Of a DNA stretch of 64,000 nt, positions 11,586-18,825 are shown piece after piece. Position numbers and translations under genes: made by a program. Source of the DNA: Demequina sp. NBRC 110054 (GTDB lineage: Bacteria > Actinomycetota > Actinomycetes > Actinomycetales > Demequinaceae). The DNA lies in contig NZ_BBRK01000006.1 in NCBI RefSeq assembly GCF_002090115.1, forward strand, positions 62,001 to 126,000. The letters are read 5' to 3'. Position 1 is the stretch's first letter; each line of letters begins with the position of its first letter. The notes under the pieces were generated by a model. It ran no database searches. It saw nothing but the letters and a program-made list of their open reading frames with translations, and was not told the DNA's origin.

Positions 11586-11735
11586 CCACCAGCGATCCCG
11601 CCCCCACGTACGATGAACGCACGCCACGGGCGAGGACCTGTACCCTGGCCCATCTGCTGGCCCTAGGGTGGGAGGCGGACTCCACTTGCGCGTCACAGCA
11701 TGTGCCGTGACCGGTCGATCAAGAAGGATAGCACG

Positions 11736-12119
11736 ATGAGCCCAGAAACACCCGTCGAGGACTCCACGACCCCCGCGCGCCGCACCTGGGCCGACGCGGG
11801 CGAGGAGACCCGGGACCTCTCCGACGTCACGTCGGTCGAGCTGATCACCACTGTAGGCGTGCACCTGCTGAGCGCCGCCGCACTGCGCTGCGGCCTCGCG
11901 GAGGACGGCGACGAGCACCAGGACCTCGACGAGGCACGCACGCTCATCACCGCCCTCGCGGGGCTCGTGACCGCGGCCGCGCCGGAGATCGGCGACACCC
12001 ACGCGCGCGCCCTTCGCGACGGCCTCCGGAGCGTACAGTTGGCGTTCAGGGAGGCCTCGGTCTTCCCGGATGCTCCGGGCGAGGGGCCGGGCGAGAAGTA
12101 CACGGGGGCAGTCAGCTGA
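11736..12119 (+). CDS. DUF1844 family protein
   Basis: 127 residues; a small mostly helical protein of the DUF1844 family (conserved VTSVELITTVGVHLLSAAAL, later ITALAGLVTAAAPEI). It is typically found next to infC in actinobacteria, as here, but has no established function. The ATG (11736) has AGAAGGA upstream; an ATG 12 codons earlier was rejected. It is transcribed divergently from infC. The next gene starts 2 bp after its stop. Confidence 0.88.
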   Translation: MSPETPVEDSTTPARRTWADAGEETRDLSDVTSVELITTVGVHLLSAAALRCGLAEDGDEHQDLDEARTLITALAGLVTAAAPEIGDTHARALRDGLRSVQLAFREASVFPDAPGEGPGEKYTGAVS

Positions 12120-12121
12120 CG

Positions 12122-12940
12122 ATGGCGCGAGACACGGCGGGTTCCTCCGCGCACGGCGGCGGCTCGGATCCGGACGGATCCGAGCTCGAGTCGACCGCGC
12201 GTCGCTCGCCTCGCGCCTCCCGCACCCCAGGTCTCTCCCGACGTGCGCGGGCGCGTCGCTCGCGCACCGCGGGCGACGAGGCCGACACCACCACGTCCGA
12301 GATCTCCAGCCCTCCGCCGACCGCCGCCGGGCTGTCGCTCGCCGAGCGCTCCGGATCCGCCTTCGGGTACGAGGACGACTGGGACGACGACGACCTCCCT
12401 GAGGGGGAGCGCAGCGACGACCGCCGAGGCGCCCGCCTGCGCTGGATCATGGTCACGGCCTTCCTCGCCCTCACGGTGCTGTCGCTCACGGGCGTCGCGA
12501 TCTACCTCACCGATGTGGTCGAGCAGTGGGAGCAGCGCTCCGACGAGCTCACCGAGGCGAACTACGAGCTCGGCGACAAGATCGCCTCGCAGAAAGAGAC
12601 GATCGCGTCGAAGACCGACCAGATCGACATCCTCACCGAGCAGCTCAACACTGCGCAGGACCGCATCAGCGAGCTCGCGAGCCAGAGCGCCAACAGCGAC
12701 GACGACCTCGCCTATGCCGAGCAGCGCCTCGAGATCCTCAGCGGCTACGCGAGCACCGGCGCCGCGGTCGCGAACGCTCTGGTCCGATGCCTCGACAGCG
12801 AGGAGCAGCTCGTCGAGTACCTCGCGAACCCCGACGACTACGACGAGGACGAGGTCGCGGCGTACGCGGAATCCGTGGACGAGCTGTGCACTGCGGCACG
12901 CGAGTCCAACTCCCAGTTCCAGGCGCTGCTGACCGAGTGA
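12122..12940 (+). CDS. membrane-anchored coiled-coil protein, cassette 1
   Basis: 272 residues; family not recognised. Layout: long charged, disordered cytoplasmic N-terminus (1-105, ending in an Asp-rich patch), one TM helix (107-129), extracytoplasmic coiled coil (about 133-208), C-terminal segment with two cysteines (223 and 256). A single-pass protein with the coiled coil outside the membrane is predicted. The protease gene starts 4 bp downstream, so the two form a translational pair. The same pair is repeated directly downstream (13780-15026): the second coiled-coil protein has two cysteines 34 residues apart, against 33 here. A partner or sensor for the protease is inferred. Confidence 0.8.
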   Translation: MARDTAGSSAHGGGSDPDGSELESTARRSPRASRTPGLSRRARARRSRTAGDEADTTTSEISSPPPTAAGLSLAERSGSAFGYEDDWDDDDLPEGERSDDRRGARLRWIMVTAFLALTVLSLTGVAIYLTDVVEQWEQRSDELTEANYELGDKIASQKETIASKTDQIDILTEQLNTAQDRISELASQSANSDDDLAYAEQRLEILSGYASTGAAVANALVRCLDSEEQLVEYLANPDDYDEDEVAAYAESVDELCTAARESNSQFQALLTE

Positions 12941-12944
12941 CCCC

Positions 12945-13694
12945 ATGAAGACTCCCCGCTCTCTCGCCCTCGCAGCGTCCGCGCTCCTGATCGCGGGCTG
13001 CGGCGTCCTCCCCGAAGGACCTGACCCGATGCCGTCCGACTGGGTGCCGACGGCGTCGGCCTCCCCCGCCGCGCGCGCGGGAGCGATCTCTCCCGACGGC
13101 TTCTCCGCGGCACAGCGCATGACCGTGCGGCTGCGCAACATCGGGTGCGGCTTCATCGCGACGGGAACTGGTTTCATCTACGACAGCACCACGCTGATCA
13201 CGAACCGCCACGTGATCGAGAACTCTCGCCAGATCCAGGTGTCGACGTACAACGGGACGAGCCTGACGACGACCGCGGTGTCGTCGACGACAGTCGCCGA
13301 CATCGCGATCGTCCGCATCGAGGAGTCGGTGCTCACGAGCTTCGCGAAGCTCGCGCAGGAGGACCCCGAGGACGGCGACGTCATCACGGTCATCGGCTAC
13401 CCCAACGGCGGCGAGCTCACGACCGTGTCAGGCGTGGTGCTCGGCGCCACGTCCGATCCTCTCGACTCGTCGATCGGACAGGTCCTGCTGACGAGCGCCG
13501 AGGTCGAGCCCGGCTCGTCGGGATCCCCTGTGCTCAACGAGAGCGGCGCGGTCGTGGGCGTCGTCTACGCGAAGACCGACGACGACCGCAGCCTGATCGT
13601 GCCCGTGTCGACGCTGCGCACCCTGCTGAACGAGACATCCCTGCTGGTCCCCGAGGCTCTCTCGTGCGACACCGCCACGGGATCCTCCTCCTGA
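12945..13694 (+). CDS. trypsin-like serine protease lipoprotein, cassette 1
   Basis: 249 residues. A signal peptide ends in lipobox IAGC (lipidated Cys19), so it should be anchored outside the cytoplasmic membrane. It has the S1/HtrA-type protease fold with a visible triad: His89 in TNRHV, Asp119 in ADIAIV, Ser192 in PGSSGSP. There is no PDZ domain; the protein ends about 45 residues after the serine. Cys68 and Cys241 could form a disulfide. The paralogue at 14304-15026 keeps the triad, lipobox and both cysteines. Substrate unknown. Confidence 0.88.
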   Translation: MKTPRSLALAASALLIAGCGVLPEGPDPMPSDWVPTASASPAARAGAISPDGFSAAQRMTVRLRNIGCGFIATGTGFIYDSTTLITNRHVIENSRQIQVSTYNGTSLTTTAVSSTTVADIAIVRIEESVLTSFAKLAQEDPEDGDVITVIGYPNGGELTTVSGVVLGATSDPLDSSIGQVLLTSAEVEPGSSGSPVLNESGAVVGVVYAKTDDDRSLIVPVSTLRTLLNETSLLVPEALSCDTATGSSS

Positions 13695-13779
13695 CGCACC
13701 CGCCCGCGGCCCTCGCTCTCCACCGAGAGCGCTCCGATGCCCGATACTGGTCACGCCCGCCGCACACCTGGGAGGACCA

Positions 13780-14307
13780 TTGACGACCGACGCCCTCGCC
13801 ACCGCTCCGCTCCCACCGCCCGCGCCCTCGCGCGGCAAGGGACGGGTGTGGCGCACGCTCGGCCTCATCGTCCTCGTCCTTGCGCTGCTGGCCGCGTCGT
13901 CGCTCGCCGCCTACCTGTGGCTCGTGAGCTCGCAGTGGATGGACCAGAACGACACCCTGCGGTCCGAGGCGACCGCGATGGGTGAGCAGCTGGCGGAGGC
14001 CCAGGATCAGGCCGCAGCGCTGCAGGCGCAGGTCGAGACTCTCGAGGGCCAGCTCGAGACCACGGCGACCCGACTGTCCGACGTGGTCAACGAGGAGGCG
14101 CACGCAGGTGATGACCTGCAGTACCTGGGCGACCTGATCGACGCGTATGCCAACTGCGTCGACTCGTACGACGAGGTGCTCACCGACGCCCTCAACGCGG
14201 GATACACGTACAGGAACTCGAACGCGAGCAGCGTGCAGGCCGACGTTGCCGAGTACTGCGACTCGCTCGCCGAGGCGTACGCGGAGTACACGGCGGAGGC
14301 CGAGTGA
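13780..14307 (+). CDS. membrane-anchored coiled-coil protein, cassette 2
   Basis: 175 residues from a TTG start with GGGAGGACCA upstream. Layout: short cytoplasmic N-terminus, TM helix (24-49), coiled coil (about 55-105), C-terminal helical segment with Cys126 and Cys160. It resembles the protein at 12122-12940 in architecture, cysteine spacing and position, but lacks its long disordered N-terminus. Its stop codon overlaps the next start (GTGA), so it is tightly coupled to the protease gene. Confidence 0.8.
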   Translation: MTTDALATAPLPPPAPSRGKGRVWRTLGLIVLVLALLAASSLAAYLWLVSSQWMDQNDTLRSEATAMGEQLAEAQDQAAALQAQVETLEGQLETTATRLSDVVNEEAHAGDDLQYLGDLIDAYANCVDSYDEVLTDALNAGYTYRNSNASSVQADVAEYCDSLAEAYAEYTAEAE

Positions 14308-15026
14308 GGAGACCCGCGCTCCTGGTCGCCCTCGCGGCGCTGCTCGCGGGGTGCGCAACCCTGCCGTCGTCCCCTCCCCCGCTGCCGGACAGCTTCGTGC
14401 CCGAGACGAACCCGACCGTCGACACGGCCTACGTGTCCGACGACGGCTTCACCCTGGCCGAGCACGCGTCCTACCGGGTCCGGGTGCGCACGTGCGACGG
14501 CTACGCGACCGGCACAGCCTTCGCGATCGACGAGCACACGCTGGTCACCAACCGGCATGTGGTCTCCGAGGCCGTCGAGGTGGACGTCACGACCTATGAC
14601 GGCCGCGAGCTCGACGTCGTGACGACCCGCATCGACCGCGACGCGGACCTCGCGCTCCTGACAGTCGACGACTCGCTCGACGAGTGGCTCGAGCTCGCGG
14701 ACGAGGAGGCGGTCAAGGGCGACATCGTGTCGGTGTCCGGCTATCCCGAGGGCGACAGCCTCTCCACCGTGAGCGGCCCGATCCGCGGAGTCGTGGACGA
14801 GGTCTTCGGGACCGACGCGGACGAGGTGCTGCTCGTCCGAGTGCCCGCGGCGCCCGGAAGCTCCGGCTCCGCGGTCGTGGACGACTCCTCCGAGGTGGTC
14901 GGAGTCCTCTACGCGATCGACGCCGACGAGGATGGCTGGTCGTACGCGGTCAGCCTCGACTCGCTCGTCACGATGCTCGAGGACTCGAGCGTGCTCGATC
15001 CCGTCGTCGGGCTGTGCGCGGACTGA
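14304..15026 (+). CDS. trypsin-like serine protease lipoprotein, cassette 2
   Basis: 240 residues from a GTG start overlapping the upstream stop. Signal peptide with lipobox LAGC (Cys17). Protease triad: His85 in TNRHVV, Asp115 in DADLAL, Ser187 in PGSSGSA. Two further cysteines (64 and 238) sit at the same places as in the first copy and could pair. No PDZ domain. Overall similarity to 12945-13694 is clear across the catalytic core, but divergence is considerable, so the duplication is not recent. Confidence 0.88.
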   Translation: MRRPALLVALAALLAGCATLPSSPPPLPDSFVPETNPTVDTAYVSDDGFTLAEHASYRVRVRTCDGYATGTAFAIDEHTLVTNRHVVSEAVEVDVTTYDGRELDVVTTRIDRDADLALLTVDDSLDEWLELADEEAVKGDIVSVSGYPEGDSLSTVSGPIRGVVDEVFGTDADEVLLVRVPAAPGSSGSAVVDDSSEVVGVLYAIDADEDGWSYAVSLDSLVTMLEDSSVLDPVVGLCAD

Positions 15027-15890: not shown

Positions 15891-16580
15891 TCAGGACGAT
15901 GCGGCCGTCCAGGCAGCGGCCGCCGCTGAGGCAGTGGCGGAGACCGGGATCGTGGGCCCGAGGAGCGCGCGCAGGTCGTCCAGTGCGGCACGCCCACCGT
16001 CGACGATCAGCCACCCGGACTCCAGCGCATCGTCCGCGCTCTCCCCGGGGGCCGTGACGAAGGGATCCTCGGTGAATCGCACAGTCTCGCAACCGAAGAC
16101 GTCGATCACGACTCCCGTGAGGTCCCCGTCGTCCACCAGGACCACGAGCTCCCGAGGACCGAGGTCGGCGAGGCAGTCCATGCTGGCCGACGCGACGGCG
16201 AGCCTGTCCAGGACGTCATCGACGATGGGCAGGTCCTCCTCCGCGAGCTCGACGGGCGTGGTCGCGAGGTGCCACGAGTTGAAAGTCCCGTTGCCGTCCT
16301 CCTGAGGGCGGTCGATGGGGACGTACTCACACAGCCATACGGCGTCGTAGCCGCCGAGCTCGGGCACCGCATCGCCCTCGAGGTCCGCTCCAAGCCCGTA
16401 CCGGTCAGACGAGTCCACGAGCGAGTCCGGGCACGCGACGCCGCCGTAGGCCGCGAGCTCGGAACCCGCGGGAGCCGATCCCTCCGCGCCCGAGTGCTCG
16501 GCGTCGCCAGAGCACCCCGTCAAGACCACCGCGAGCGCTGCGCCGCACAGGCTCGCCGCTGGAGTCCCGATGTTCCCCAT
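15891..16580 (-). CDS. putative lipoprotein of unknown function
   Basis: 229 residues. A signal peptide with lipobox LTGC (Cys23) is followed by a short Ser/Gly linker and an acidic domain with several cysteines (ACPDSL, LCEYVP, DCLADLG, FGCETV) that could form disulfides outside the cell. Family not recognised. The ATG has AAGGGGGATGGC upstream and a -10-like TACGCT about 28 nt before it, so it appears to have its own promoter. It lies downstream of hisA on the same strand. Confidence 0.8.
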   Translation of the reverse strand: MGNIGTPAASLCGAALAVVLTGCSGDAEHSGAEGSAPAGSELAAYGGVACPDSLVDSSDRYGLGADLEGDAVPELGGYDAVWLCEYVPIDRPQEDGNGTFNSWHLATTPVELAEEDLPIVDDVLDRLAVASASMDCLADLGPRELVVLVDDGDLTGVVIDVFGCETVRFTEDPFVTAPGESADDALESGWLIVDGGRAALDDLRALLGPTIPVSATASAAAAAWTAASS

Positions 16581-17514: not shown

Positions 17515-18825
17515 TCAAGAGATGAAGCTCGCGGCGCAGTACACGGAGTCGCCGGCATCACTCAGGCGCCAGAAGCAGCCGACCTTGGCCGCGGCGGGCT
17601 CACCGTCCGTGAGAATCTCCCCGAGGTGGACGTCCGAGTCGAGGAACGCCTCCATCAGGGCCGGGATGTCCGCGGCGTAGCCGACGATGTTGTCGTGCCC
17701 CGAGTGCCAGATATCGGACGCCTCGGCCATGTCCTCGGCATGCGCGACGAGCGAGCCCCACTCGCCGCACGAGGTGAGCGGTGGCGAGCCCGCGGCCTCG
17801 CGGATCTCGTCGAGCGCCCTGCAGAAGCGCGCCTCGCTGCTGCGGTGCTTGAGAGTCACGGGCGTCGACGTCGACGTGCTCGATCCTCCGCTCGCCGTCG
17901 ACGCGTGCGGCGAGGGCTCCGATGGCTCCTTCTCCGCGGAGCCTTGGGACGTCGTGCCTTGCCCTGTACCGCTCGTGCCCGTCGACTGCGACCCTGACGG
18001 CTGTGACCCTGACGGCTGCGCGGCCTGCTGCGCGGCCAGTCGCGCTGCCTCCTCAGCCTCCGCCTGCGCCGTCTCCCACTTGTCGTGCGACGCGGACACG
18101 AGGGCTGCCGCGGTCCGCAATTCGCCGCGCGCCGCGCCGAGCAGCTCAGCCTGCTGCGCCAACCACGGCGCGTCGTCGGCGGCGGACGCCTCCGCGTCGA
18201 GCGCCTCCTGGAGCGCGTCCAACGCGGCCGCGAGCCGCTCGCGGGTCCGCTCGTCCGACACCTCACCCGCGGTGTCGGCATAGACGCCCTGCGCCTTCAC
18301 CTGCGCGCGCTGCGCGGCGTCCGCGGCGTCCGCATACGCGAGGGAGGCCGCCTCCAGGACGGCCTCGCCCTCCGCATCGTCCAGCGACGCCTGCCCGGCC
18401 TCGAGATCCGCCGCGAGCGACTCGAGCTCCTCCGCCGCGGCGACCAGCTCCGCGGTCAGAGCCTCGTTCTCCTCCACGGTGTTCTCGTCCAGCGTGTTCC
18501 CGCGCGCCGCGTCTCCCGCCTCGGGGTCGCACGAGTCCACCGCGGCGAGCGATGCGGAGACTGTCTCCGCGAGCGCCTGGCCGGCCTCGGAGTCGACCGT
18601 CAGCTCGGCCCCCGCCAAAGCCTTCTCGGCGTGCTCAGCGGCTTTGCGCAGCGCGCTCTCGGCGTCCACACACGTCGCTGCGGCCTCCTCGACCTCGGCG
18701 ATCGAGGCCGCGAGCGCCTCACGGTCCCGCTGCTGCGCCGTGGCGATCCACCCACCGGCGCCGAGCGCGACGACGCCGACCACGGCAAGCGTGGTCATCA
18801 CGCGCGCACGCGGCATCATTGCCAT
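17515..18825 (-). CDS. secreted or anchored coiled-coil protein with CAP/SCP-like C-terminus
   Basis: 436 residues. An N-terminal TM or uncleaved signal (about 8-28) is followed by Ala/Glu-rich coiled coil (about 35-270), a Ser/Gly/Thr/Gln linker (about 275-325), and a C-terminal ~110-residue domain. That domain resembles the CAP/SCP fold: [37 protein letters not shown]. Four cysteines there could form two disulfides. The match is by pattern only and divergent. The ATG has GAAGGGG upstream. It sits between hisH and hisA although nothing suggests a histidine role; wall attachment is inferred. Confidence 0.75.

Follow-up and report, generated by a model that had tools for sequence, protein, structure and literature searches.

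Adjacent genes for a protein that spans the membrane once and has a coiled coil on the outside (CC) and for a MarP-type lipoprotein serine protease (PR) very likely encode a two-part envelope protease that has hitherto not been described. The window (the whole stretch of DNA analysed, 64,000 nucleotides from Demequina sp. NBRC 110054) carries two such gene pairs in tandem, and in related genomes the protease gene is always found directly after that of its partner. MarP itself is the acid-resistance protease of the tuberculosis bacterium; in mycobacteria, proteases of its type govern both the hydrolases of the cell wall and the resistance to acid. In the CC–PR system the protease is separate from the membrane part and has one small partner, making it a simple, deletable two-gene test of regulation in trans. 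A search of the literature for the gene pair found no papers, and the CC family carries no name in the libraries searched.

The two cassettes and their proteins

The cassettes and the gene immediately upstream of them are laid out as follows.

11700..12119, + strand: gene for a DUF1844 (PF08899) protein (Pfam E 3e-14)
12122..12940, + strand: CC1, predicted single-pass membrane coiled-coil protein (AlphaFold model, hydrophobicity period, conserved cysteines)
12945..13694, + strand: PR1, predicted MarP-type S1 serine protease with a lipobox (Pfam Trypsin_2, NCBIfam, Foldseek, conservation)
13780..14307, + strand: CC2, the second, diverged membrane partner with a coiled coil (start at TTG, two cysteines, CC tree)
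14304..15026, + strand: PR2, second predicted MarP-type lipoprotein protease (Pfam, NCBIfam, alignment to PR1, PR tree)

All four cassette ORFs were found where the initial annotation of this DNA had placed them, with a gap of 4 nt between CC1 and PR1 and with the start of PR2 overlapping the stop of CC2 (GTGA). CC2 starts at a TTG behind the sequence GGGAGG, 85 nt after PR1, and cassette 2 therefore appears to have a ribosome-binding site of its own. The DNA is GC-rich, and a scan of the locus for promoters and terminators yielded nothing of use. Each gene of cassette 1 has its homologue in cassette 2, with 37% identity between PR1 and PR2 over 199 amino acids (E 2e-41) and 25% identity between CC1 and CC2 (E 2e-6). 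A further coupling, missed earlier, lies at the front of the locus, where only 2 nt separate the DUF1844 gene from CC1; the DUF1844 protein may be co-translated with the pair. Downstream of the cassettes, the minus strand encodes a 229 amino acid lipoprotein-like protein (15891-16580) and a 436 amino acid protein with an Ala/Glu-rich helical region (17515-18825), both without a Pfam match.

Each protease begins with a lipoprotein signal peptide, the lipobox reading LIAGC in PR1 (Cys19) and LLAGC in PR2, which suggests that the mature protein is held by lipid on the outer face of the membrane. Pfam places a Trypsin_2 domain (PF13365) in both (E 1e-24 for PR1 and 2e-23 for PR2), with no PDZ match and nothing N-terminal to the protease domain in either. 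The catalytic triad is H89/D119/S192 in PR1 and, by alignment, H85/D115/S187 in PR2, and each protein has two extra cysteines (C68 and C241 in PR1, C64 and C238 in PR2), so that lipobox, intact triad and additional cysteines are all present as first described. Among the matches listed, the lipobox cysteine, C68, H89, D119, S192 and C241 are kept in 127 of 127 homologues, and both cassettes should therefore encode active proteases. The N-terminal arm of the mature protein has a DGF motif (residues 51-53 of PR1), kept in 119-124 of the 127 matches listed; it is a family feature and a candidate docking segment. The predicted model of PR1 has a pLDDT of 89, with 3k6y as the top Foldseek match.

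CC1 and CC2 are built alike, each with a basic stretch, a single membrane helix and an outside portion that is helical. In CC1, a low-complexity cytoplasmic N-terminus (about residues 1-105) is followed by a transmembrane segment (about 108-132), an outside coiled coil and a helical hairpin, and the hydrophobicity of the protein peaks at a period of 3.5-3.55 residues, as in coiled coils. An AlphaFold model of residues 105-272 (pLDDT 91) contains helices at 2-85, 89-131 and 138-167 in model numbering. The first runs from the membrane to residue 85 and, after a turn, gives way to a two-helix hairpin bearing Cys119 and Cys152, which are Cys223 and Cys256 of CC1. Counted from the C-terminus, the two cysteines lie at 50 and 17 in CC1 and at 50 and 16 in CC2, confirming the spacings of 33 and 34 residues given in the initial annotation. 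Among the matches listed, they are present in 123-124 of the 127 rows, with a wider spacing at some loci (L078, L079, L081 and L082). Conservation of the key residues of both PR and CC is far beyond chance. The cytoplasmic part of CC is variable low-complexity sequence, the conserved part of the protein being its helical ectodomain.

Searches of the PDB with the CC model found no fold match at E below 2, and comparison of CC with Pfam and NCBIfam gave only sub-threshold coiled-coil matches. PADLOC and PHROGs returned nothing but generic protease or coiled-coil matches (RT-Protease_XI at 76 bits and an Rz-like spanin at E 5e-4, for example); these were taken to reflect shared folds rather than membership of a defence or lysis system.

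Gene pairing, host range and duplication

We searched 396 genomes of the order with hidden Markov models of CC and PR, a strong PR match being defined as one of at least 145 bits; a clear gap divides these matches from the next group, at about 100 bits and below, which comprises MarP- and HtrA-like proteins. Among the matches listed, each of the 105 strong PR matches is immediately preceded by CC on the same strand. The first CC model identified the partner of 101 of these, and the remaining four, apparent exceptions to the pairing, are second cassettes whose diverged CC is recognised by a model of the second-cassette partner. PR likewise lies downstream of CC in each of the 102 CC matches listed from these genomes. 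A set of 100 loci, overlapping the 396-genome set (the counts of 127 and 105 are thus not to be added), contains 127 PR genes, every one of them with CC upstream, and no natural CC–PR fusion was seen among these loci. As PR always directly follows CC, the two very likely work together. The initial annotation had proposed that each pair forms a functional unit and that the two families should be sought together in other genomes; they do co-occur, and both the consistency of the pairing and the duplication of the pair as one unit (see below) support the proposal.

The unit is found in the Demequinaceae, the Cellulomonadaceae and a few other genera, its hosts being soil and marine actinobacteria. 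Named hosts are Demequina, Cellulomonas, Isoptericola, Sanguibacter, Actinotalea, Krasilnikoviella, Cellulosimicrobium and Pengzhenrongella, and they include culturable environmental bacteria (Cellulomonas, Isoptericola and Demequina). The closest named relatives of PR1 come from Demequina salsinemoris (93%) and Demequina sp. SYSU T00b26 (81%). In a class-wide sample outside the order no CC–PR unit was found, the matches in it being MarP/HtrA-like and of 108 bits or less.

In three families (f1, f9 and f3), the cassette is located between the infC-rpmI-rplT region and SseB-HisA, most of these loci including DUF1844 as well (in the order infC/DUF1844-CC-PR-SseB-HisA), whilst in families f8 and f17 CC and PR are found in other surroundings and are still paired. 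DUF1844 is conserved upstream of the pair in Demequina and in most Cellulomonadaceae loci but is not part of the pair, and none was detected next to it at the loci examined in f3, f8 and f17.

Many Demequina possess two cassettes. All 27 second cassettes of the tree set fall into a single clade, with a support of 1.0 in the CC tree and 0.92 in the PR tree, and the CC–PR pair was thus duplicated as a unit. Tree distances of CC and PR correlate at 0.87, with a partial r of 0.53 once SseB, HisA and DUF1844 are removed. Other adjacent genes also give appreciable partial values (0.39 for CC and DUF1844, 0.41 for PR and SseB), so that linkage can explain the figure of 0.53, which is no independent proof of contact; the mirror-tree approach, confounded as it is by gene adjacency, was set aside as support for contact between CC and PR. 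A more elaborate arrangement occurs in G044, a genome of genus g2 in the family of the window genome, where contig C13 (131166-134222) has the order CC-PR-CC-CC-PR, with two diverged CC matches before the second protease, and where a further pair is located on contig C3.

The role of the partner protein

What CC does for the protease can be approached by analogy, with MarP (for the membrane tether and the cleavage of RipA) and SteB as guides. CC is probably a membrane-anchored docking or regulatory subunit of PR, each cassette then encoding a two-subunit envelope protease. PR would be exported and held by its lipid on the outer face of the membrane as a MarP-type chymotrypsin-fold protease, and a disulfide between its two extra cysteines would presumably, as it does in MarP, tie the C-terminal tail to the first barrel. 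CC would lie N-in/C-out in the membrane, its coiled-coil rod standing away from the surface next to PR, with the C-terminal cysteine hairpin forming an accessory head that is probably stapled by a disulfide. Most likely, CC would bind PR and either position it for an envelope substrate or control its activity, as a counterpart in trans of the built-in membrane domain of MarP and of the PDZ domain of HtrA. We infer both the physical contact between the two proteins and the direction of any regulation, from CC to PR; that the substrate would belong to the envelope is suggested by the example of MarP and RipA.

Other explanations of the pairing have to be weighed against this one. CC might be not the regulator of PR but its substrate, the ectodomain being clipped in a regulated release or in a site-1-type cleavage. 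Strict one-to-one pairing on the same side of the membrane would fit an enzyme and its substrate too, and CC evolves the faster of the two (relative to the window copy, Cellulomonadaceae-type CC is about 25-31% identical and PR about 47-54%). The cytoplasmic N-terminus of CC, however, is unconserved and of low complexity and has no recognisable signalling domain, leaving no obvious message to be released, and it is the helical ectodomain that has been conserved; we regard cleavage of CC as unlikely. That CC and PR are merely co-transcribed neighbours with no shared function would be in keeping with partial mirror-tree values that track gene adjacency in general and with the conservation of DUF1844 and SseB beside the pair, but CC and PR stay joined at different loci, where DUF1844, SseB and HisA do not, and have been duplicated together, making simple neighbourhood a very improbable explanation.

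Two further possibilities concern the cysteines and the loss of MarP. The initial annotation had suggested that the pair might sense redox state, in which case the cysteine hairpin of CC or the cysteine pair of PR would act as a switch for the protease. Among the matches listed these cysteines are nearly invariant in CC and PR alike, and the corresponding disulfide of MarP has been tied to oxidative stress and active-site stability (PMC4992679). An ordinary structural disulfide would account for the conservation equally well, however, and the pair is kept even in a lineage of family f8, genus g10 (loci L084 and L085), whose CC ends after the first helix and lacks hairpin and cysteines. The pair can thus persist without hairpin or cysteines, sensing of redox state by CC is not the core function, and a redox switch, weakened in this way, appears quite improbable. 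Replacement of MarP, with the pair processing peptidoglycan hydrolases or serving in acid or oxidative stress in MarP-free lineages, draws on the MarP-type protease domain of PR, on the cleavage of RipA by MarP (PMC6628586) and on the absence of canonical MarP, as judged by the NF033740 cut-off, from every one of the Demequinaceae searched and from most Cellulomonadaceae carriers. By genus, however, the association is weak and confounded by ancestry, MarP being present, among the matches listed, in 5 of the 17 genera that carry the pair and in 50 of the 92 that do not (Fisher p 0.07), and its absence was accordingly dropped as proof of replacement. Carriers in f8, in f17 and in some f9 genera have both MarP and the pair, and some genomes have neither; we consider replacement unlikely. 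Four f8 genomes (G053, G141, G154 and G180) encode a second full-length MarP-like protein that scores 227-238 bits, just below the cut-off. For the preferred reading of CC as a subunit of PR, a more ambitious version can be put forward tentatively: the Demequinaceae, the Cellulomonadaceae and their relatives may possess an undescribed split, two-protein MarP-type protease, controlled in trans by CC, that came to fill the place of MarP in lineages that had lost it.

Comparison with MarP, HtrA and SteB

On the evidence of sequence profiles and predicted structure, the most fitting description of PR is that of a protease of the MarP type that lacks the membrane domain of MarP. The best NCBIfam model for both proteins is that of the MarP family serine proteases (NF033740), with scores of 91 bits for PR1 and 83 bits for PR2 against a cut-off of 250, the match covering only the protease part of the model. 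MarP is also the best PDB profile match of PR (E 1e-21), and by VIA-align the PR model ties MarP with Deg/HtrA structures at a Z of about 25. A cysteine is present 21 residues before the catalytic histidine both in PR and in all six same-order MarP proteins checked, whilst the second cysteine follows the catalytic serine by 47 to 51 residues in PR and by 53 in those six proteins. The C-terminal cysteine of PR (mature residue 223) is the last residue aligned to MarP, and the aligned range of MarP ends at 394, beside its own C-terminal cysteine (MarP triad numbering was taken from PMC6628586). The cysteine positions matched by PR are those at which the MarP disulfide is located (PMC4992679). The S1-type protease of the initial annotation therefore does have a serine protease fold but is no orphan, belonging by profile, Foldseek and cysteines to the type of MarP (Rv3671c); its two extra cysteines, correctly placed, are the known MarP pair rather than something new.

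With MarP (structures 3k6y, 3k6z and 3lt3), PR shares the chymotrypsin fold, a location on the outer face of the membrane (probable in PR), the lack of a PDZ domain and the cysteine pair. MarP requires its membrane tether, a colicin V-like N-terminal domain of four transmembrane helices (PMC4992679), in place of which PR has a lipobox anchor. Under acid stress MarP cleaves RipA, a hydrolase of the cell wall (PMC6628586). Unlike MarP, PR is paired with CC and scores under the NF033740 cut-off. The HtrA/DegP/DegS proteins (S1C) have the protease fold and the Trypsin_2 domain in common with PR, but in HtrA and DegP a PDZ domain, absent from PR, follows the protease domain. Of the three HtrA-type proteins encoded by the same genome, two have a PDZ domain, and none of the three has a cysteine in its listed ORF. 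The closest parallel to CC is SteB of the Mycobacteriales SteAB-RipA system, likewise a single-pass protein with an outside coiled coil encoded in an adjacent gene pair, which binds and activates the envelope hydrolase RipA (PMC12977500). This likeness, set by description, is an analogy only: SteB is paired with SteA and acts on an NlpC/P60 peptidoglycan hydrolase, whereas CC is paired with a serine protease.
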